Shown here one piece after another: positions 40,113 through 53,905 of a stretch of 64,000 nucleotides of DNA. The notes under the pieces were generated by a model that saw only the letters and a list, made by a program, of their open reading frames with translations, was not told the DNA's origin and made no database searches. Made by a program: the position numbers and the translations under genes. Positions within the stretch are counted from its first letter, which is position 1, and each line of letters begins with the position of its first letter. Source of the stretch: Granulimonas faecalis (GTDB lineage Bacteria; Actinomycetota; Coriobacteriia; Coriobacteriales; Atopobiaceae); the NCBI RefSeq assembly GCF_022834715.1, contig NZ_BQKC01000001.1, forward strand, positions 1,586,501 through 1,650,500, in the 5' to 3' direction.

Positions 40113-40790
40113 TCAGAGCTTGAAGAGGTAGCCCACACCGCGCACCGTGACGATGTGCGAGGCCACCTGGGGACCCACCTTGGAGCGTACGCGGCGGATG
40201 TGCACGTCCACCGTGCGGGTGCCGCCACAGTACTCGAAGCCCCAGACGCGGTGGAGCAGGGCCTCGCGCGAGTAGGCGCGGGACGGGTGGGTGGCCAGGA
40301 ACGAGAGCAGCGAGTACTCCATGAGGGTGAGGTCCACGGGCTCGCCGTCGATGGTGACCTGATAGGTGGCCAGGTTGATGGTCATGTTGTCGATGGTGAC
40401 GAAGTCAGACGGCACGGTCTCCTCGCCGGGCCAGAGCAGGAGGGCCAGACGGACCTCGAACTCTGCCTCCGACGCGGTGGCCAGGATGAGGTCGGAGCGG
40501 CCCTGCACCGGCATCCGGAGGGAGGGGAGTTGCTCTTCGTCCACGGAGAAGAGCCGGGGGATGCCGGAGTTGCCCGCCACATAGGCGTCTACCTTGTTGA
40601 TGGTCTCGGACGAGAGGCCCGCGAGGTCGAGCAGGACGAGGTCGAAGTCGTGTCCTGACGAGATTGCCTGGTCGAAGGTGTCGGGCGTCGACAGGAGCAC
40701 CGAGATGTCGAGGGAATGGGAGAGCTCCCGCATCCGCTCGTGCAGGCGGCTCGTCTTCGAGACGAGGAGGACGTTCTTATGGTGCTGCAA
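40113..40790 (-). CDS. GlnR-like orphan response regulator (OmpR/PhoB fold)
   Basis: A 225-residue regulator with an atypical receiver domain (1-115; acidic DLVLLDLAG segment, but the usual phosphorylation pocket is poor) and a C-terminal winged helix. The segment VWGFEYCGGTRTVDVHIRRV is very close to the actinobacterial GlnR signature and ends HIVTVRGVGYLFKL. The start is a TTG with AAGGAGG 6 bases upstream. No sensor kinase lies nearby. The next genes are an amino-acid ABC operon and a glutamine-synthetase-like gene, and a GlnR-type motif lies before the latter, so nitrogen control is likely. It could instead be a RegX3/PhoP-type regulator. Confidence 0.78.
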   Translation of the reverse strand: MQHHKNVLLVSKTSRLHERMRELSHSLDISVLLSTPDTFDQAISSGHDFDLVLLDLAGLSSETINKVDAYVAGNSGIPRLFSVDEEQLPSLRMPVQGRSDLILATASEAEFEVRLALLLWPGEETVPSDFVTIDNMTINLATYQVTIDGEPVDLTLMEYSLLSFLATHPSRAYSREALLHRVWGFEYCGGTRTVDVHIRRVRSKVGPQVASHIVTVRGVGYLFKL

Positions 40791-40972: not shown

Positions 40973-41825
<853 letters not shown>

Positions 41826-41833
<8 letters not shown>

Positions 41834-43286
41834 CCTGGGCCTCCTCTCGGGGCGCGGCGCCCATGCGGGCACGGGCGGTGGCGGGCACGGCCGGGCGCGG
41901 CTTGAGTCGTGCAGCGCCGAAGGCCTTGCGGCTCTCCTCGGCGACCGCCTCGGCCGCCGGGTCGGGGTCGACGGTCTCGGCGTCGCGTCCCTCGATGCCC
42001 TCGGCCTTGGCCGGGCCCTTGGGGCGCGGCCCCTGGCCGGACTCGCTGCGGGCGAGGTGCTGCTCGACCTTGGAGACGATGCGGATGAGCGGCAGGGTGA
42101 CGATGAGGTAGTAGATGGCCGCGGCGATGTAGGGCGTGATGTTGCCGGTGACCGTGGTGAGGTTCTTGGAGAACATCATGAGCTCCATGACGCCCACCGA
42201 GGACAGCAGCGAGGTGTCCTTGTAGCCCGTGATGAAGTCGCTCGTGACCGTGGGGAGCACGCGGCGCACGGTCTGGGGCAGGATGACCGAGACCATGGTC
42301 TGCCGGGCGTTCATGCCGAGGGACTCGGCGGCCTCGTACTGCCCCTTGGGGATGGACTCGATGCCGGCGCGGAAGATCTCGGCCAGGTAGGCGCTCGAGT
42401 TCACGGCCATGACGATGACGCCCAGCACGTTGTTGTCGATGTTGACGCCGATCATGGGCAGGCCGAAGAACATGATATAGATCTGCAGGAAGAGCGGCGT
42501 GCCGCGCAGGATGTTGATATAGGTGACGGCCACGGCGCGCACGACGCGGTGCTTGGCCATCTTCATGAACGCGAAGAGCAGGCCGAGCAGGATGGCGAAC
42601 GGGTAGGCCACCACGACGATGGCCAGACAGACGAGCCAGCCGGGAAACAGCGAGGCGAACGACGTCACGAGCAGCTGCGGCTTGAAGAACATGCCGAGGA
42701 ACTGGTTGGAGTTCCACGCCGCCACCCAAGGCTGCTCGTCGAGCCAGTTGACGAGCGCCTGCAGCGGCGTGTTGGCGATGACCGCGATGACCGGCGACGG
42801 CGCGAGGTCGGTCTCCTGGCCGTCGACGGTGGCGGTGCCGGTCACCTGCACGTCGCCACCCTCGGGCGGGAACCGCATGTTGGTGACCTCCACGCGGAGG
42901 AGGTCGCCGGCGCCCACGGGCTCGGAGAAGTCGAGGGTGAGACTCGTGCCGTCGACCTTGGCGTCGGCCTGCACGTCCTTGCGCTTGAGGCCCTCGAGCA
43001 CGGTGACGCGGGAGGTGGAGCCGTCGAAGGAACCGTCCTGGGGCAGTGTCAGCGTCACGGCATCCACGCTCTCGCCCTCGTCGACGGTGGCCTCCCAGGT
43101 GAGTCGCGTGTCGATGCCGCCGATGACGCCGGAGCCGCCGTCCTCGTTGGGCTTGGCCGTCGCCTTGTTGACGGTGACGGCCTCGGCCGTGGCGGGCGCC
43201 ACGGCCGTGAGGCAGAGGGCCGCGGCGAGGGCGGCACAGAAGGCGCGCGCGACGTGGCGCCCCTGCCGATCTGCCGTGTGCTTCAT
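41826..43286 (-). CDS. Amino-acid ABC permease with N-terminal exported Ig-like domain
   Basis: A 486-residue protein. Residues about 1-36 look like a cleavable or anchoring signal segment. Residues about 40-165 form a beta-rich Ig-like domain ([20 protein letters not shown], then [13 protein letters not shown]). From about 195 on it is a HisM/GlnP-type permease with about five helices and the EAA loop [20 protein letters not shown]. The C-terminal 75 residues are a charged, Pro/Ala-rich cytoplasmic tail. Ordinary permeases of this family have about 220-300 residues and no such extracellular domain, so the fusion is unusual. ATG 43286 has AAGGAGGA upstream. It overlaps the ATPase gene. Confidence 0.85.
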
Positions 43287-43311
43287 GGGAACCAATCCTC
43301 CTTCGGGCCGG

Positions 43312-44139
43312 CTACAGCTGCTCGCCGAACCACTTCTCCTGGAGCCTCGCTATGGTGCCGTCGTCCACGAGCTCCTTGTACGCCTTGTCGATCGCCTCGG
43401 TCAGGCCGGGATTGTCCTTGGAGACCACGAAGCCGTACTGCTCGCCCGTGGCGATCTCCTGCTTCACCGCGAGGTCCTTGTAGCTGGTGTTGCAGAGGTG
43501 CGACAGCACGGGCAGGTCGGCCACGCAGGCGTCGTAGGAGCCGGTCTGGACACCCATGAGGCACTGGACGACGTCGTCCAAGGGCACCACCTGCGCGTTG
43601 GTGAGGTTCTCCTCGACCCAGGCCTCGCCCGTGGTGCCCGACTGAACGGCCACCTTGGCGTAGGCGTTGTTGAGCTCGGTGTCGGGGTCCAGGACCTTGG
43701 AGGAGGCCGCCATGACGAGCCCCTGGTTGGAGTCCAGGTAGGGGTCCGTGAAGTCGATCTCCTCGGCGCGCTCGTCGTTGACGGTGAAGGCGGAGGCGCC
43801 GATGTCGGCCCTGCCGCCCTGCTTGATCTGGGGGATGATGGTGTCGAACTTCACCTGGGACCACTCGGCCTCGAGGCCCAGCTTCCCGGCGACGGCGTCC
43901 ACGACGTCGACCTCGTAGCCCTCGCAGTCGGCCGCCGTCTTGCCCTCGGGCACGGACTCGAGGGGCGGGTAGGCGAGGTCCGAGAGGACCGTGAGGGTGC
44001 CCTCCTTGACCGTGGAGACGCCCCCCGCTCCCCCGGCGGACGACGAGCCGCAGGCGGCGAGGGCGAGGACGGTGGCGACGCAGACGGCCAGGGCGGCCAG
44101 CTTCGGTGCTCGTTTCATAAGCGTCCGTGCTCGTTTCAT
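43312..44139 (-). CDS. Amino-acid binding lipoprotein 1
   Basis: A 275-residue extracellular substrate-binding protein (family 3). The signal peptide ends with lipobox VLALAACGSSS, so it is lipid-anchored. Family motifs are visible: GTLTVLSDLAYPPLES, CEGYEVDVVDAVAGKLG, KFDTIIPQIKQGGRADIGAS and YGFVVSKDNPGL. The start region has a perfect 21-bp tandem duplication (44106-44147) that doubles the ribosome site and ATG (MKRARTLMKRAP). ATG 44139 is preferred since it has AAAGGA, while ATG 44118 has a weaker site. It is the first gene of the ABC operon. Confidence 0.92.
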   Translation of the reverse strand: MKRARTLMKRAPKLAALAVCVATVLALAACGSSSAGGAGGVSTVKEGTLTVLSDLAYPPLESVPEGKTAADCEGYEVDVVDAVAGKLGLEAEWSQVKFDTIIPQIKQGGRADIGASAFTVNDERAEEIDFTDPYLDSNQGLVMAASSKVLDPDTELNNAYAKVAVQSGTTGEAWVEENLTNAQVVPLDDVVQCLMGVQTGSYDACVADLPVLSHLCNTSYKDLAVKQEIATGEQYGFVVSKDNPGLTEAIDKAYKELVDDGTIARLQEKWFGEQL

Positions 44140-44147
44140 AAGCGTCC
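44106..44147. repeat. Perfect 21-bp tandem duplication at a start codon
   Basis: Two adjacent copies of a 21-base unit (GTGCTCGTTTCATAAGCGTC plus C), each carrying the complement of an ATG. Being a multiple of three, the repeat adds 7 residues in frame. Confidence 0.95.
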
Positions 44148-44285
44148 TTTCAGGGGGACTCGAACGTGGGGACGATACTACCATCCCCGGGACGTTTATT
44201 CGACGCCTCATCATACGTGCCGATAAAAGAAACGAGATTGTTATTCGATACTCCGAATATTTTCAGGGCAGGAGCCCGGAGACCC

Positions 44286-45149
44286 CTAGGCCAGCGGCGA
44301 CCCGAACCACTTGGCCTCGAGCGACGCCACGAAACCGTCCTCCTCGAGGGCCGCAAGGGCATCGTCCACGGCCTCGCGCACGGCGGGGTCCTCGGACGAG
44401 AAGGCGAAGCAGTAGCGGCTCACGTCGTCCTGGTGGTGGCCCACCATGAGGGTGCCGAACATGGAGTTGAGGAGGTAGGTGGCGCTCACGTCGTCGTAGA
44501 CGGCGGCGCTGTAGGTGCCGTTGGCCACGCCCGTGAGGCCCTGGACGGCGTTGTCCACCGGGACCACCGCGGCCTTGGGGAGGGTCTCGCGCACCCAGGC
44601 CTCGTTGGGCGACCCGCCCTGCACCACGACGGTGCACGCGGGGTCGTTGAGCTGCTCGACCCCCTTGAACGGGCGCTCGCGGGGCACCACGACGTCGCGG
44701 GGCACCACGACGTCGCGACCCACCGACATATAGGGCGACCCCGCCTCGAGGGAGGAGACGCTGCCCCCGAAATCGTCGAGGGAGAGGGCGGAGGCGGCCA
44801 TGTCCGCCGCCCTGTCGGCCACGGCGGACTCGACCGCGGGGAGGTCCTCGCACCGGCGGAACTCGAGGTCCAGACCCAAGCGGTCGGCCACCTCGGCGAC
44901 GAGCTCGTACTCGAACCCGCGGCGCTGGCCGTCGGAGTCCACGAAGTCCATGGGCGGCGACGCGAAGTCGCAGGCCACCGTCAGCGTGCCCGGCTCCACG
45001 GTGGACAGGTCCCGCTCGATGTTCCGCTTGGCGAAGGGACCCTGGAGCGCCGCGCACCCGCACAGGAGGGTGCCAGCGAGGATGACGAGCACGCACAGGG
45101 CCGTGCGCGGCGTCGGACGCCTGTGGCCGTGTCTGACGGGTTCACCCAA
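44286..45149 (-). CDS. Amino-acid binding lipoprotein 2
   Basis: A 287-residue family 3 substrate-binding protein, diverged from lipoprotein 1 (GTLTVACDFASPPMDFVDSD, FEYELVAEVADRLGLDLEFR, DMAASALSLDDF). The lipobox is LLCGC. The best start is TTG 45149 with GGGGAGG about 11 bases upstream; an upstream TTG at 45212 has no ribosome site. An 18-bp tandem repeat inside the gene gives RDVVVPRDVVVPRE. It has no permease or ATPase beside it and probably shares the neighbouring transporter or acts as a sensor. It has its own promoter at about 45296-45323. Confidence 0.85.
   Translation of the reverse strand: MGEPVRHGHRRPTPRTALCVLVILAGTLLCGCAALQGPFAKRNIERDLSTVEPGTLTVACDFASPPMDFVDSDGQRRGFEYELVAEVADRLGLDLEFRRCEDLPAVESAVADRAADMAASALSLDDFGGSVSSLEAGSPYMSVGRDVVVPRDVVVPRERPFKGVEQLNDPACTVVVQGGSPNEAWVRETLPKAAVVPVDNAVQGLTGVANGTYSAAVYDDVSATYLLNSMFGTLMVGHHQDDVSRYCFAFSSEDPAVREAVDDALAALEEDGFVASLEAKWFGSPLA
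44677..44712. repeat. 18-bp in-frame tandem repeat in binding lipoprotein 2
   Basis: Two adjacent perfect copies of TCGCGGGGCACCACGACG, coding for a doubled RDVVVP. Confidence 0.9.
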
Positions 45150-45295
45150 TGGAAAGACCGCCTCCCCGAACAAGCCGGTTCTCTCAAAGCTCTTTGAAAC
45201 AAAGTAACACAACGGGGCCCACGACGGCCCCTCGTTACGGGTAGCGACACCCGGGGGACAACCGCTGGTAGAACGATTTTTAAGGTTTCGTTAAG

Positions 45296-45376: not shown

Positions 45377-45406
45377 AAAAGCCGCCCCCTCCGGAAAAGG
45401 GGCGGC
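45377..45406 (-). terminator. Rho-independent terminator of the GS-like gene
   Basis: GCCGCCCC pairs with GGGGCGGC around 10 bases, followed leftward by TTTTGTG. It lies 40 bases past the stop. Confidence 0.85.
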
Positions 45407-45445: not shown

Positions 45446-46780
45446 CTAATAACCGCCGTAGTAGCTGCGGACCTCCCAGTCCGTGACCGTGGAGTTGTAC
45501 GACAGCCACTCGCGACTCTTCTCCTCCACCAGGAACTCGAAGGTGTGGTCGCCGAGGACCTCGCGCATGAGCTCCGAGGAGCGGAAGGCCTCGATGGCCT
45601 CCCCGAGGTCGCGGGGGAGCCGCTCGAACCCGGCGCTCTCGAGCTCCAGCTCCGAGGTGCCGAGGTCGGAGGTGTACTCCGGGGGCAGGGGCAGGCCCTC
45701 CTCGATGCCCTTGAGGCCGGCCATGACCGTGGCGGCGATGGCGTGGTAGGGGTTGGCCGAGGGGTCGGGCACGCGCAGCTCAACGCGGGTGGACTGGTGC
45801 TTGCCGGGCTTGTGCATGGGAATGCGCACGAGGGCGTTGCGGTTGCGGCGGCCCCAGGTGGCGAACGTGGGGGCCTCGCCGTCGGGGACGAGGCGCTTGT
45901 AGGAGTTCACCGTGGGGTTGGTGAGCAGCATGTACTCGGGCGCGTAGCGGACGAGGCCGGCGATGTAGTGGCAGGCGACGTCGCTGAGGTGGTGACCGCC
46001 CTCGGCGCCCCAGAAGACGTTCTCCCCCTCGCCGTCGAAGAGCGACTCCTGCAGGAACATGCCGGAGCCGGGGCGCCCGGGGATGGGCTTGGGCATGAAC
46101 GACGCGTAGAAGCCGTTGTTCTGGGCGATCTGCTTCACGGCGAAGCGCGTGGTCATGATGTTGTCCGCCGCGCTCACGGCCTCGGCGTAGCGGAGCGAGA
46201 TGCCCTGCTGCGACGGCCCCATGGCGTGGAAGGAGTACTCCACGGGGATGGAGAGGCGCTCGAGGGAGAGCACGGTGTCGCGGCGCAGGTTGCGCGACGA
46301 GTTGGTGGGCGCGAGGTCGAAGTAGCCGGCGTCGTCCAGGGGCACCGGGCTCTTGGAGCTCTCCGAGTAGAAGTACTCGAGCTCGGGGCCCACGTTGGGC
46401 ACGAAGCCGCGGTCGGACGCCAGGCGGAAGACGCGCATGAGGCAGTGGCGCGGGTCGCCCTCGAAGGGCTGGCGGTCGGGGGTGCAGATGTCGCAGAAGA
46501 TGCGGGTCACGGCGTTGGCCGCGGGGCGCCACGGCAGGAACTGGAAGGTGGAGGCGTCGGGGAAGGCCAGCATGTCGGACTCCACCACGGAGGAGAAGCC
46601 GTTTACCGACGACCCGTCGAAGCCGATGCCCTCCTCGAAGGCCTCCTCGAGGTCCTCGGGCGAGATGGCGAACGACTTGAGGTTGCCGAGCACGTCCGTG
46701 AACCAGAGACGGACGAACCGGACGTCGCGCTCCTCGACGGTGCGAAGCACGTAATCGATGTCCTTGCTGGAGTTGCTCAT
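45446..46780 (-). CDS. Glutamine synthetase-like protein with altered active site
   Basis: A 444-residue type I (alpha-size) glutamine synthetase homologue, full length and in frame. It keeps GIGFDGSSVNGF, GPELEYF (the first two metal Glu), NPTVNSYKRLVP, NRNALVRIP and TRVELRVPDPSANPY. But where GSI enzymes have HHEVAPSQHE it has FHAMGPSQQG (both metal Glu lost, to Ala186 and Gly193), and where they have SGMHVHQS it has SGMFLQES (metal His to Phe242). Three of the six manganese/magnesium ligands are therefore missing. It may be inactive, use another chemistry or be regulatory. ATG 46780 is chosen (GAGG 5 bases upstream). A GlnR-type motif lies 80 bases upstream. Confidence 0.85.
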   Translation of the reverse strand: MSNSSKDIDYVLRTVEERDVRFVRLWFTDVLGNLKSFAISPEDLEEAFEEGIGFDGSSVNGFSSVVESDMLAFPDASTFQFLPWRPAANAVTRIFCDICTPDRQPFEGDPRHCLMRVFRLASDRGFVPNVGPELEYFYSESSKSPVPLDDAGYFDLAPTNSSRNLRRDTVLSLERLSIPVEYSFHAMGPSQQGISLRYAEAVSAADNIMTTRFAVKQIAQNNGFYASFMPKPIPGRPGSGMFLQESLFDGEGENVFWGAEGGHHLSDVACHYIAGLVRYAPEYMLLTNPTVNSYKRLVPDGEAPTFATWGRRNRNALVRIPMHKPGKHQSTRVELRVPDPSANPYHAIAATVMAGLKGIEEGLPLPPEYTSDLGTSELELESAGFERLPRDLGEAIEAFRSSELMREVLGDHTFEFLVEEKSREWLSYNSTVTDWEVRSYYGGY

Positions 46781-46859
46781 CACTACCTCGCAATGGAAGG
46801 GGGTGGAGGCCGTCGCAAGGGCCCCTTGTGCATAGTCCTGACAACTGTTGCACAGGGGT

Positions 46860-46875
46860 GTTTCAGCTCTGTTTC
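46860..46875 (-). promoter_or_regulatory. GlnR-type operator before the GS-like gene
   Basis: On the minus strand GAAAC-n6-GAAAC, then at the same 11-base period GTGCA and GTCAG, which are partial matches. This follows the known actinobacterial pattern gTnAC-n6-GaAAC. It lies about 80-95 bases before the start codon. Confidence 0.45.
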
Positions 46876-50603: not shown

Positions 50604-53237
50604 CTAGGCGGCCTTCCTCGCCGCCTCGGCGTGGCCCGCGCGCGCCTTGGGCATGGGCCGGAAGAGCTGGAACAGGATGGCGGCCAGCGCGACGAACGCC
50701 ACCGCCGTCCAGACCCCGAAGCGCCCCAGGGCGAAGAGCTCCCACAGCTGGTTGATGATGAGGCCCACGACCCAGCCGAAGCCGCACTGGTAGCCCACGG
50801 CCGCCCAGAACCACCTGGTGTCGTTCATCTGGCGCCGGATGGTGCCGATGGCAGCGAAGCACGGGGCGTCGAGCATGTTGAAGGCCACGAAGGCGATCAT
50901 GGCGCCGAGGGAGAAAGCGCCGGCCACGGTGAACATCTGCTGAAACGTGGCCCAGAGGAGCGTGGAGCCCTCCCCCACCTCACCGAGGCCGAACAGCACG
51001 CCGAACGTGGAGACGAGGTTCTCCTTGGCGATGAGCGCGGAGAGCGAGCACGCGGCGGCCTGCCATGAGCCGAACCCCAGGGGCGCGAAGATCCAGGCGA
51101 TGGCACCGCCCACGGCGGCGAGCAGCGAGAAGTCCATGTAGTTCTCGGGCACGGCCCCCATGGCGGGCAGGAACCCGAAGGCGCCGTCGCCGCCCTCCCA
51201 GCCGGCGAGGCCGAAGTTGGAGAGGAGCCACACGCCCACGCAGGCCACGAAGATGATGGTGCCGGCCTTCTTGATGAACGCGGAGACGCGCTCCCACATG
51301 TGCAGCAGGTACGACTTGAGGGCGGGCAGGTGGTAGGCGGGCAGCTCCATGACGAACGGGGCGGGCTCGCCGGCGAAGGGCTTGGTCTTCTTGAGCATGA
51401 TGGCCGACACGATGACGGCGGCGAGGCCCAGGAAGTAGAAGAACGGGGCGATCCACCAGCCCTCGGTGCCGCCGATGAGCACGCCCATGAGCAGGGCGAT
51501 GATCGGGGTCTTGGCGCCGCAGGGGATCATGGTGGTGAGCATGACGGTCATGCGGCGGTCGCGCTCGTTCTCGATGGTCTTGGTGGCCATGATGCCGGGC
51601 ACGCCGCAGCCGCTGGAGATGAGCAGCGGGATGAAGCTCTTGCCGGAGAGGCCGAAGCGGCGGAACGCGCGGTCCATGACGAAGGCCACACGGCTCATGT
51701 AGCCGCAGTCCTCGAGGAAGCACAGGAGCAGGAACAGCACGACCATCTGGGGCACGAAGCCGAGGATGGAGCCCACGCCGCCCACGATGCCGTCGAGGAC
51801 GAGGGACTTCACCACGGCGGAGGCGCCGACCTGGTCGAGCCAGCCCTCGACGACCACGGGGATGCCGGGCACGTAGATGCCGTACTCGCCGGGGACGGGC
51901 TCGGCGGCCTCGGAGGCCGCGAGGAACGCGGCGGCGTCGACGTCGTCGTGGTAGGCGAGGGTCTGGCCGGCGGCCAGCCGGGGCTCGTCGGAGGCGTCGG
52001 TGAGCACCACGTTGCCCTCGCTGTCGAGGAAGTTGCCGTCGGCGTCGTGCACGGGGACGTCGGTGGCCACGACACCCGCGGCCTGGGCACGGGAGGCGAA
52101 GTCCTCGACGACGGCAGTGTCGCCCTCCTCGACGGCTTCGGCCACGCCCTCGGTGGAGACGCCGGCCTCCTCGGCGGCCGCGAGGTAGGCGTCCACCCGG
52201 CCGCTGTAGTCGTTGTCGGCGTACTCCTCGGACGCCTCGTCGTAGGCGGCCGCGGAGGCGGGGCTCAGGAACCAGCCGTCGCCGAAGACGCCGTCGTTGG
52301 CCCAGTCGGTACCCCAGGTACCCACGGTGGAGACCGCGAGGTAGTACACGAGGACCATGACCGCCACGAAGATGGGCAGGCCCAGCCAGCGGTTGGTGAC
52401 CACGCGGTCGATCCTCTCGGAGGCGGTGAGGTGCGGGGGCGCCTTGACCACGCAGTCGGCGACGGTGGCCTCGATCCAGTCGTAGCGCTCGCAGGTGACG
52501 AGCGACTCGGCGTCGTCGTCCAGCCTTGCCTCGACGCCGGAGCGCACGGCGTCGAGGGCGGCCACGGACGCCGCGGGCAGCCCGAGGGGCTCCAGGGCGG
52601 CCCCGTCGCCCTCGAAGGCCTTGACGGCGTACCAGGGCAGGCGCGCCTTGTCGGCCACGTGGGGGGCCACGATGGAGGAGCACTCGTCCACGGCATCGGC
52701 CGCCTCGCCGGTGAGGAACGCGGGCGCAGGGGAGGCGGCGCCCGCGCGGCCGGCCTCGACGGCGGCCTCGACGAGGGCGTCGAGGTTGGTGCGGCGCAGG
52801 GCGCTGATGCCCACGACCGGGCAGCCGAGGCGCTCGGAGAGGGCGTCGACGTCGATGGAGTCGCCCTGCTTCTCGACGAGGTCGCACATGTTGAGCGCCA
52901 CGACGCAGGGCACCCCGCACTCGCGCACCTGGGTGGCGAGGTAGAGGTTGCGCTCGAGGTTGGTGGCGTCGACGACGTCGACCACGCACGCGGGCTCGCC
53001 GCCGAGCAGGTAGTCGCGGCTCACGACCTCCTCGGGGGAGTAGGGCGAGAGCGAGTAGACGCCGGGGAGGTCGGTGAGCACCACCGACGGGTCGCGGCGC
53101 AGCGGCGCCTCGAGCTTCTCCACGGTGACGCCGGGCCAGTTGCCCACGTAGCCGTTGGAGCCGGTAAGCTCGTTGAACAGTGTCGTCTTGCCACAGTTGG
53201 GGTTGCCTATCAAGGCGATGTGCACGGTCTTGTCCAC
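50604..53237 (-). CDS. feoB: Ferrous iron transporter FeoB
   Basis: FeoB takes up Fe(II), with an N-terminal GTPase and a membrane gate. The 877-residue protein has G1 ALIGNPNCGKTTLFNELTGS, G3 LTDLPGVYSLSPYSPEE and G4 ALNMCDL, then the gate motifs GGVGSILGFVPQMVVLFLLL and ISSGCGVPGIMATKTIENER. An unusual 135-residue hydrophilic, acidic insert (about 321-455) lies in the extracellular loop after the first gate helix, replacing what is normally a short link between TVGTWGTDW and the LDGIVGGVG helix. The start is GTG 53237 with AAAGGGAG. It is the last gene of feoA-feoA-feoB. Confidence 0.95.
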   Translation of the reverse strand: MDKTVHIALIGNPNCGKTTLFNELTGSNGYVGNWPGVTVEKLEAPLRRDPSVVLTDLPGVYSLSPYSPEEVVSRDYLLGGEPACVVDVVDATNLERNLYLATQVRECGVPCVVALNMCDLVEKQGDSIDVDALSERLGCPVVGISALRRTNLDALVEAAVEAGRAGAASPAPAFLTGEAADAVDECSSIVAPHVADKARLPWYAVKAFEGDGAALEPLGLPAASVAALDAVRSGVEARLDDDAESLVTCERYDWIEATVADCVVKAPPHLTASERIDRVVTNRWLGLPIFVAVMVLVYYLAVSTVGTWGTDWANDGVFGDGWFLSPASAAAYDEASEEYADNDYSGRVDAYLAAAEEAGVSTEGVAEAVEEGDTAVVEDFASRAQAAGVVATDVPVHDADGNFLDSEGNVVLTDASDEPRLAAGQTLAYHDDVDAAAFLAASEAAEPVPGEYGIYVPGIPVVVEGWLDQVGASAVVKSLVLDGIVGGVGSILGFVPQMVVLFLLLCFLEDCGYMSRVAFVMDRAFRRFGLSGKSFIPLLISSGCGVPGIMATKTIENERDRRMTVMLTTMIPCGAKTPIIALLMGVLIGGTEGWWIAPFFYFLGLAAVIVSAIMLKKTKPFAGEPAPFVMELPAYHLPALKSYLLHMWERVSAFIKKAGTIIFVACVGVWLLSNFGLAGWEGGDGAFGFLPAMGAVPENYMDFSLLAAVGGAIAWIFAPLGFGSWQAAACSLSALIAKENLVSTFGVLFGLGEVGEGSTLLWATFQQMFTVAGAFSLGAMIAFVAFNMLDAPCFAAIGTIRRQMNDTRWFWAAVGYQCGFGWVVGLIINQLWELFALGRFGVWTAVAFVALAAILFQLFRPMPKARAGHAEAARKAA

Positions 53238-53339
53238 TGGGTCTCCCTTTCGTAGTGCCGGGGGCGGGCGACCCCCTGCCCCGCCGTGCGGGGCCCTCTC
53301 TCTCCTGCGGTCGGGCACCCCGCCCGGCCCTCCCCTCGG

Positions 53340-53576
53340 CTAGGCGGGGACTACCTCCACACGGGCGGCCTCGTCCTTGCGGATGGACAGCTCGTAGCCG
53401 CGGACGGTGAGCTCCACGGGGTCGCCCAGGGGCGCGACCTTGCGCACCGCCACGTGGGTCCCCTTGGTGATCCCCATGTCCATGATCCGGCGGCGGACCT
53501 GCCCCGAACCGGTGAGCCTGCGCACGGTGCAGGCCTCCCCCACCGCGACGTCGGCGAGGGTCATGACCTCGGCCAT
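53340..53576 (-). CDS. feoA: FeoA domain protein 1
   Basis: A 78-residue SH3-like cytosolic protein needed for FeoB function. MTLADVAVGEACTVRRLTGS, then RRRIMDMGITKGTHVAVRKV and DPVELTVRGYELSIRKDEA match the FeoA family over its full length. ATG 53576 is used because the family N-terminus begins there; the open frame upstream is a shadow. It lies 102 bases before feoB and 50 bases after a second feoA-like gene. Confidence 0.9.
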   Translation of the reverse strand: MAEVMTLADVAVGEACTVRRLTGSGQVRRRIMDMGITKGTHVAVRKVAPLGDPVELTVRGYELSIRKDEAARVEVVPA

Positions 53577-53626
53577 GGCTTCTCCTCTCTCTGCCTGTCG
53601 GGCAGCTGTACGACTGGTTGCGCGGC

Positions 53627-53905
53627 TCAGGCGCCGGGGGCGCAGAGGACCCTGCGCGCCGTCGCCTTGTCGAGCGCGAGCCGGGTGCCCATCACCTGGG
53701 CCACCGTCCCCGACACCGCCTGGCCCACGACGCGCACTGCCGCCCCCTCGACGAAGCCGAGGGTGGCCAGGTGGCGCACCACGCGCTCGCCGCCCTTGAC
53801 GGCCTGGACGGTCACGGTCTCGCCGACCTTGGCCATCGAGAGCGGCATGGCCGGGACGGACGGGCCGCCGCGGCGGACGCCTCTCTTCTCCCTGACTGCC
53901 TCCAT
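53627..53905 (-). CDS. feoA: FeoA domain protein 2
   Basis: A 92-residue FeoA-like protein (MPLSMAKVGETVTVQAVKGG, RHLATLGFVEGAAVRVVGQA, GTVAQVMGTRLALDKATARR) with a short basic N-terminal extension. GGAGG lies just before ATG 53905. Two FeoA genes before FeoB are known in several Gram-positive lineages. It is the first gene of the operon, behind a promoter at 53945-53972. Confidence 0.88.
   Translation of the reverse strand: MEAVREKRGVRRGGPSVPAMPLSMAKVGETVTVQAVKGGERVVRHLATLGFVEGAAVRVVGQAVSGTVAQVMGTRLALDKATARRVLCAPGA

Follow-up and report, generated by a model that had tools for sequence, protein, structure and literature searches.

What can a glutamine synthetase (GS) homologue be kept for once half of its metal ligands are gone? 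The question is posed by a gene of Granulimonas faecalis that lies in the stretch of 64,000 nucleotides analyzed here (the window, to which coordinates refer unless stated otherwise). An earlier note, made from the sequence alone, had described the encoded protein as lacking three of six metal ligands through changes that look selected, and had offered three functions for it: a new enzyme, a nitrogen-status regulator, or a partner subunit of GS. Our reading, to which we assign a probability of about 0.5, is that a type I-alpha GS without metal-dependent phosphoryl transfer has been kept as a noncatalytic nitrogen-status sensor in a GlnR circuit.

An intact GS fold with a depleted metal site

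The gene, its two altered motifs, and a hairpin at its end are as follows.

45446..46783, minus strand: pseudo-glutamine synthetase (pseudo-GS) gene, 445 amino acids, likely start ATG at 46780
46202..46231, minus strand: FHAMGPSQQG, with lost ligands E189 (A187) and E196 (G194) in B. subtilis numbering, as aligned to the GS of B. subtilis and of M. mazei
46043..46066, minus strand: SGMFLQES, with lost metal ligand H245 (F243), from alignment
45385..45401, minus strand: terminator-like hairpin just 3′ of the pseudo-GS stop codon, from a consensus scan (weak evidence)

The open reading frame has no internal stops, its likely start lies where homologues begin, and its product matches both GS Pfam domains. 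The AlphaFold (AF2) model, built on a 28-sequence alignment (pLDDT, 81.5; pTM, 0.87), has the beta-grasp N-domain and catalytic C-domain of the GS fold, and the nearest solved fold is M. mazei GS (TM, 0.91; 44% identity). The window protein is a full-length type I-alpha GS (GSI-alpha) fold; it scores 405 bits against the NCBIfam GlnA equivalog, under the 429-bit cut-off. A polyamine ligase (gamma-glutamylputrescine synthetase) was considered as well and rejected, the protein falling far below that model (279 bits versus a cut-off of 650). An Rfam scan of 38 to 54 kb of the window gave no match.

GSI enzymes have six metal ligands, which in B. subtilis are E132, E134, E189, E196, H245, and E333. 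Some of them are listed in PMC10799026 and PMC9249791. Three of the six are replaced in the window protein (E189 by A187, E196 by G194, and H245 by F243), with FHAMGPSQQG at 46231-46202 standing where GSI has HHEVAPSQHE and SGMFLQES at 46066-46043 standing where GSI has SGMHVHQS; the other three (E132, E134, and E333) are retained as E134, E136, and E335. Alignment with B. subtilis GS over the full-length frame thus bears out the reported loss; of the two motifs, the span first given for it (46170-46240) covers the first and leaves SGMFLQES outside. FDGSS, NSYKRLVP, and RVELRVPDPSANPY are well kept, as had been described. Other changes replace H187 (F185) and the glutamine-feedback arginine R62 (S65), and Asp50 (D56), R298, E304, R316, R321, R331, and R335 are retained. 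Judged by these residues, pseudo-GS very probably lacks normal GS catalysis.

A single clade under purifying selection

Among homologues gathered from public genomes and from a set of 148 Coriobacteriia genomes, part of which were assigned to families from their relatives, E189, E196, and H245 are all absent in 54 of 54 nonredundant sequences from Atopobiaceae (42) and Coriobacteriaceae (12) and intact in all 58 outgroup sequences (19 from Eggerthellaceae and, from deeper orders, 25 in group A and 14 in group B). The 54 degenerate sequences form one clade (SH-aLRT, 100; stem, 0.5 changes per site) in a tree made by a quick method without bootstrap, so that a single loss of the three ligands, in the ancestor of Atopobiaceae and Coriobacteriaceae, is the simplest reading. 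No frame in the clade is broken, and dN/dS between close pairs within it (NG86; dS is saturated for the pair L016/L021) is about 0.03 to 0.27, overlapping that of intact relatives. Purifying selection on pseudo-GS since the loss is supported by these comparisons, and the impression that the changes look selected has held up: the variant is a conserved clade with one basal loss and purifying selection afterwards. According to the earlier note, normal residues in relatives would point to sequence error or recent decay. None of the 54 clade members carries them, and either explanation is now exceedingly improbable, given that the same three ligands are missing across many independent assemblies, that the frames are intact and dN/dS is low, and that we found nothing in favor of error or decay. 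Literature searches found no published work on this pseudo-GS clade, and a metaproteome paper with Coriobacteriales (PMC12208373) holds no evidence on pseudo-GS.

Within the clade, the metal-ligand columns lose conservation beyond matched columns (about the 98th percentile), and five pocket arginines are invariant, with 0.035 of matched column sets equally conserved. Pseudo-GS might alternatively be a new enzyme that GlnR induces when nitrogen is short: a ligase or kinase acting on a different substrate or using metal in a changed way. Clade-wide retention of the Asp50, E134, and E333 equivalents (the E134 position is D in 3 of 54 members) and of R298, R316, R321, R331, and R335 speaks for such an enzyme, as does a promoter box that fits nitrogen control (described below). 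We nevertheless consider it unlikely, because a single ligand is left of the three at one metal site and the other site is without its histidine; 33 of the 42 Atopobiaceae sequences also have the E132 ligand replaced (by K, R, G, or D); the flap glutamate E304, although present in the window protein, is missing from 11 of the 12 Coriobacteriaceae sequences; and the replacements do not form one new conserved ligand set. Nearly all clade members have P, S, T, A, or Q at the Arg62 position, which is S65 in the window protein.

GSIII as a catalytic backup

The earlier note had suggested looking for a second, normal GS, and had named the lack of any other GS, combined with normal activity of the protein, as refuting its reading. 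A second GS is present: the sole other GS-family gene in the genome encodes GSIII (G000:C1, about 790.2 to 792.3 kb). Its ligand motifs (VGPEQEYFL, HNEVAPCQHE, NGSGKHDN, and FEFRM) are intact, and by these motifs GSIII can be predicted to do the glutamine-synthesis catalysis in place of pseudo-GS. All 91 genomes sampled from the order have the GSIII N-terminal domain, against 0 of the 57 others of the class, and Eggerthellaceae kept both GSIII and a GSI with the three ligands. GSIII was likely gained in the ancestor of the order, and the GSI ligands would then have been lost later, in the ancestor of the two families. These species must depend on GSIII or other enzymes to assimilate ammonia, and annotation is corrected in that proteins of the pseudo-GS clade are not to be assumed to do so.

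A GlnR-like regulator as constant neighbor

Gene clustering around all GS loci yields a single partner that is constant, a regulator of the OmpR type, about 225 residues long and encoded downstream on the same strand. The window holds the Atopobiaceae layout of this pair, with a transporter between pseudo-GS and the regulator.

44286..45212, minus strand: ABC transporter amino-acid-binding protein of family 3, its gene lying between those of pseudo-GS and the regulator (Pfam SBP_bac_3)
43312..44214, minus strand: second family 3 amino-acid-binding protein (Pfam SBP_bac_3; best NCBIfam match, polar amino-acid binding proteins)
41826..43295, minus strand: permease of an amino-acid ABC transporter, with a long extension at its N-terminus (Pfam BPD_transp_1, residues 234-414)
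40973..41872, minus strand: GlnQ-like amino-acid ABC transporter ATPase (best NCBIfam match GlnQ, below cut-off)
40113..40790, minus strand: GlnR-like orphan OmpR-family regulator, 225 amino acids (best solved relatives 8hig, 8hih, and 8hml; conserved GS partner across the class)

The GlnR-like gene lies directly downstream of GS at 22 of 25 deep-order A loci, 17 of 19 Eggerthellaceae loci, and 14 of 14 Coriobacteriaceae loci; in Atopobiaceae it is near GS in 22 of 24 long loci, either directly next to it or after a polar amino-acid ABC transporter. Upstream of GS in the deep orders is a gene set that is presumably an archaeal-type glutamate synthase. The top three solved relatives of the linked regulator are named OmpR-family or transcriptional regulators in the table of matches, and we take them to be actinobacterial GlnR structures. 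In the order, the receiver of this regulator does not have the usual pair of acidic residues, as would be expected of an orphan regulator of the GlnR kind, and the protein ends in GVGYLFKL, with no GS-binding C-tail. In all likelihood, pseudo-GS is a member of a GlnR-like circuit.

Pseudo-GS might instead be a regulatory or scaffolding subunit for another enzyme or a transporter (GSIII, glutamate metabolism, or the linked ABC transporter) and not for a transcription factor. GSIII is indeed present wherever pseudo-GS is, and in Atopobiaceae the transporter lies between pseudo-GS and the regulator. The GS-regulator linkage is, however, both more ancient and more widespread than either GSIII or the transporter, the deep orders pair GS and regulator without GSIII, and GSIII is not adjacent to pseudo-GS; such a subunit role seems on the improbable side.

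Other features of these loci are recorded here as separate observations. The permease (41826-43295, minus strand) is extended at its N-terminus by about 200 residues, which include a possible signal sequence and match DUF2808 near the threshold; it is unusual for a permease to be fused to a secreted domain. Elsewhere in the window (50604-53905, minus strand) lies a gene for a FeoB-like iron transport protein of 904 amino acids with an insert after its GTPase part; the two small open reading frames beside it (78 and 92 amino acids) recur there in Coriobacteriaceae. In a single-contig Eggerthellaceae-like genome (G117), the GS match is split in two and the GlnR-like gene is absent, as if they had decayed together. 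We did not adopt co-loss of regulator and GS as proof of their connection: it is suggestive in G117, but the drafts G076 and G096 show a GlnR-like match without GS.

A GlnR box upstream of pseudo-GS

46860..46875, minus strand: GlnR box GAAAC-AGAGCT-GAAAC, about 80 bp ahead of the pseudo-GS start codon; the sole match in the window

The published GlnR box consists of 5 + 6 + 5 bases (PMC10704036). Matches to GWAAC-n6-GWAAC number one in the window (0.05 expected) and three in the 2.23-Mb genome. A sense-strand box stands upstream of GS in 26 of 42 Atopobiaceae, 10 of 12 Coriobacteriaceae, 6 of 19 Eggerthellaceae, and 24 of 25 deep-order A promoters; the exact box is absent in the other 16 of 42 Atopobiaceae promoters. 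Dinucleotide shuffles of the GS promoters give a mean box count of at most 0.04, and spacers of 2 to 5 and 7 to 11 give at most one match per group, so that recurrence is confined to spacer 6. The predicted GlnR boxes are highly significant by sequence. Promoters of one family are not fully independent of each other, but common descent alone accounts less readily for boxes that agree between families. Metal-site loss, selection, and circuit membership of pseudo-GS are thus, as far as sequence comparison goes, well supported.

GSIII promoters carry a variant GlnR box at -71 to -104 in 10 of 20 Atopobiaceae genomes. At the GSIII locus of this genome, 15 relaxed matches were found versus 22.9 expected, which is not significant alone. 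Another exact box (L134 1501-1516; G000:C1:313496-313511) lies near the start of an EamA-type transporter-like frame, which could be a further regulon member. In two relatives (L181 and L182), genes for binding proteins of amino-acid-type ABC transporters have an exact GlnR box upstream, which fits a nitrogen regulon.

Proposed sensing and the candidate ligand site

Because of the linked GlnR-like gene and the GlnR boxes, we favor a regulator over a new enzyme. Among the three functions first offered, the nitrogen-status regulator is thereby the one that gains, and the new enzyme and the partner subunit are less favored. Strong selection together with the GlnR-type link suggests that the protein is kept as a nitrogen sensor, not as an enzyme. 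In the circuit that we propose, the GlnR-like protein would control transcription of pseudo-GS, the pseudo-GS oligomer would bind a metabolite that reports nitrogen status, and the ligand-bound form would pass that status to the GlnR-like regulator and change its activity. We put the chance that pseudo-GS signals to the regulator at roughly even; linkage and a shared box also fit a GS that is a mere target of the regulator. Such a target might have a structural or other noncatalytic role unrelated to nitrogen sensing, for which abundant, stable GS oligomers and the reuse of a dead GS as lengsin (PMC2667176) offer a basis and a precedent. We regard this as quite unlikely, since it leaves the class-wide GlnR-like pairing and the kept ligand pockets unexplained.

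For the sensor that we prefer, the best candidate metabolite would be 2-oxoglutarate, bound at a retained intersubunit site; alternatively, glutamate, glutamine, or a nucleotide could bind in the retained arginine pocket.

46232..46717, minus strand: span of seven residues matching the M. mazei GlnA1 2-oxoglutarate site (F23, R25, S37, R86, R167, R168, and S184), all seven identical

The 2-oxoglutarate contacts of M. mazei GlnA1 are F24, R26, S38, R87, R172, R173, and S189 (PMC11957540, PMC10799026). Besides matching all of them, the window protein lacks the tyrosine and glutamate that would block the site in B. subtilis, and the candidate site varies little within the dead clade (4 members have Q for R26 and 2 have N for R87). 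Excess conservation of the site was considered as proof of the ligand and set aside, there being none relative to matched columns (fraction, 0.61); the site therefore counts as consistent with 2-oxoglutarate binding and not as proof of it. A PII protein was not found in this genome, so the usual 2-oxoglutarate sensor seems absent; PII is also absent in several sister genomes and present in others. From the residues, 2-oxoglutarate is a tentative assignment as the ligand of pseudo-GS. As a separate observation, deep Coriobacteriia (L104-L117) have a second intact GSI (group B) adjoining an oppositely oriented glutamate-synthase-like gene, and in it the class A 2-oxoglutarate residues R26 and R173 are H and K.

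Comparison with known systems

In Firmicutes, glutamine-bound catalytic GS switches the MerR-type regulators GlnR and TnrA (PMC9249791). The window locus resembles that system in encoding a GSI-alpha with a nitrogen regulator. It differs in that the Firmicute regulators are MerR-type, with a C-tail entering the GS active site, whereas the window regulator is OmpR-type and has no such tail, and in that the Firmicute GS is catalytic, with glutamine feedback through Arg62 and Glu304, whereas the window GS retains Glu304 but lacks both the metal site and Arg62. The pseudo-GS circuit may work like the Firmicute circuit without belonging to it; because regulator family and feedback arginine are not shared, the relation is one of analogy and not of membership.

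The methanogen GSI-alpha enzymes (M. mazei GlnA1 and M. thermolithotrophicus GS; PMC11957540, PMC10799026) have identical 2-oxoglutarate contacts but are active, unlike the window protein with its three missing metal ligands. Lengsin, the pseudo-GS of the vertebrate lens, is a class I GS homologue without catalysis and with another role; the window protein shares the fold and the loss of catalytic residues with it and may share a nonenzymatic role. Lengsin is eukaryotic and structural and has no link to nitrogen regulation, and we claim no common descent with the window pseudo-GS. GlnA2, GlnA3, and GlnA4 of Streptomyces and mycobacteria are also actinobacterial GS-like proteins other than the main GS, but they are described as ligases (gamma-glutamylpolyamine synthetases), and the window protein scores far below that kind of model. 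A pseudo-GS and a GS as partner of a nitrogen regulator are thus both already known, and the combination found here is a variant of them. In keeping the GS but dropping its metal site, this clade of gut and oral actinobacteria would separate the enzyme from the proposed sensor.

The closest parallel on the side of the regulator is actinobacterial GlnR (PMC10704036): GlnR structures are the best matches of the linked regulator, and its presumed boxes are of the 5 + 6 + 5 form. No co-localized sensory gene has been described for Streptomyces glnR (PMC10704036), whereas in Coriobacteriia GS is a constant neighbor; we found no GlnR study in Coriobacteriia in the open literature searched. At GlnR-like loci in other actinobacterial classes, GS adjoins on the same strand in 13 of 20 (upstream in 12 of the 13), and these 13 GSs keep the E189, E196, and H245 equivalents, so that a GS beside a GlnR-like gene appears, from gene order, to be widespread in Actinomycetota. 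In 5 of the 13 (L220, L222, L226, L228, and L232), the key catalytic Arg316 is replaced, by G, A, Q, Q, and E, with the metal ligands intact; catalysis may have weakened repeatedly among GSs linked to GlnR. According to a review from 2023, the nitrogen signals and sensory kinases of actinomycete GlnR are still unknown (PMC10704036), and with this GS the nitrogen input of GlnR in actinobacteria becomes testable. A broader reading, which we hold to be possible though somewhat doubtful, is that in much of Actinomycetota the adjoining GS is the nitrogen sensor missing for OmpR-type GlnR, to which it reports 2-oxoglutarate or glutamine status, and that catalysis was shed in Atopobiaceae and Coriobacteriaceae after GSIII took it over.
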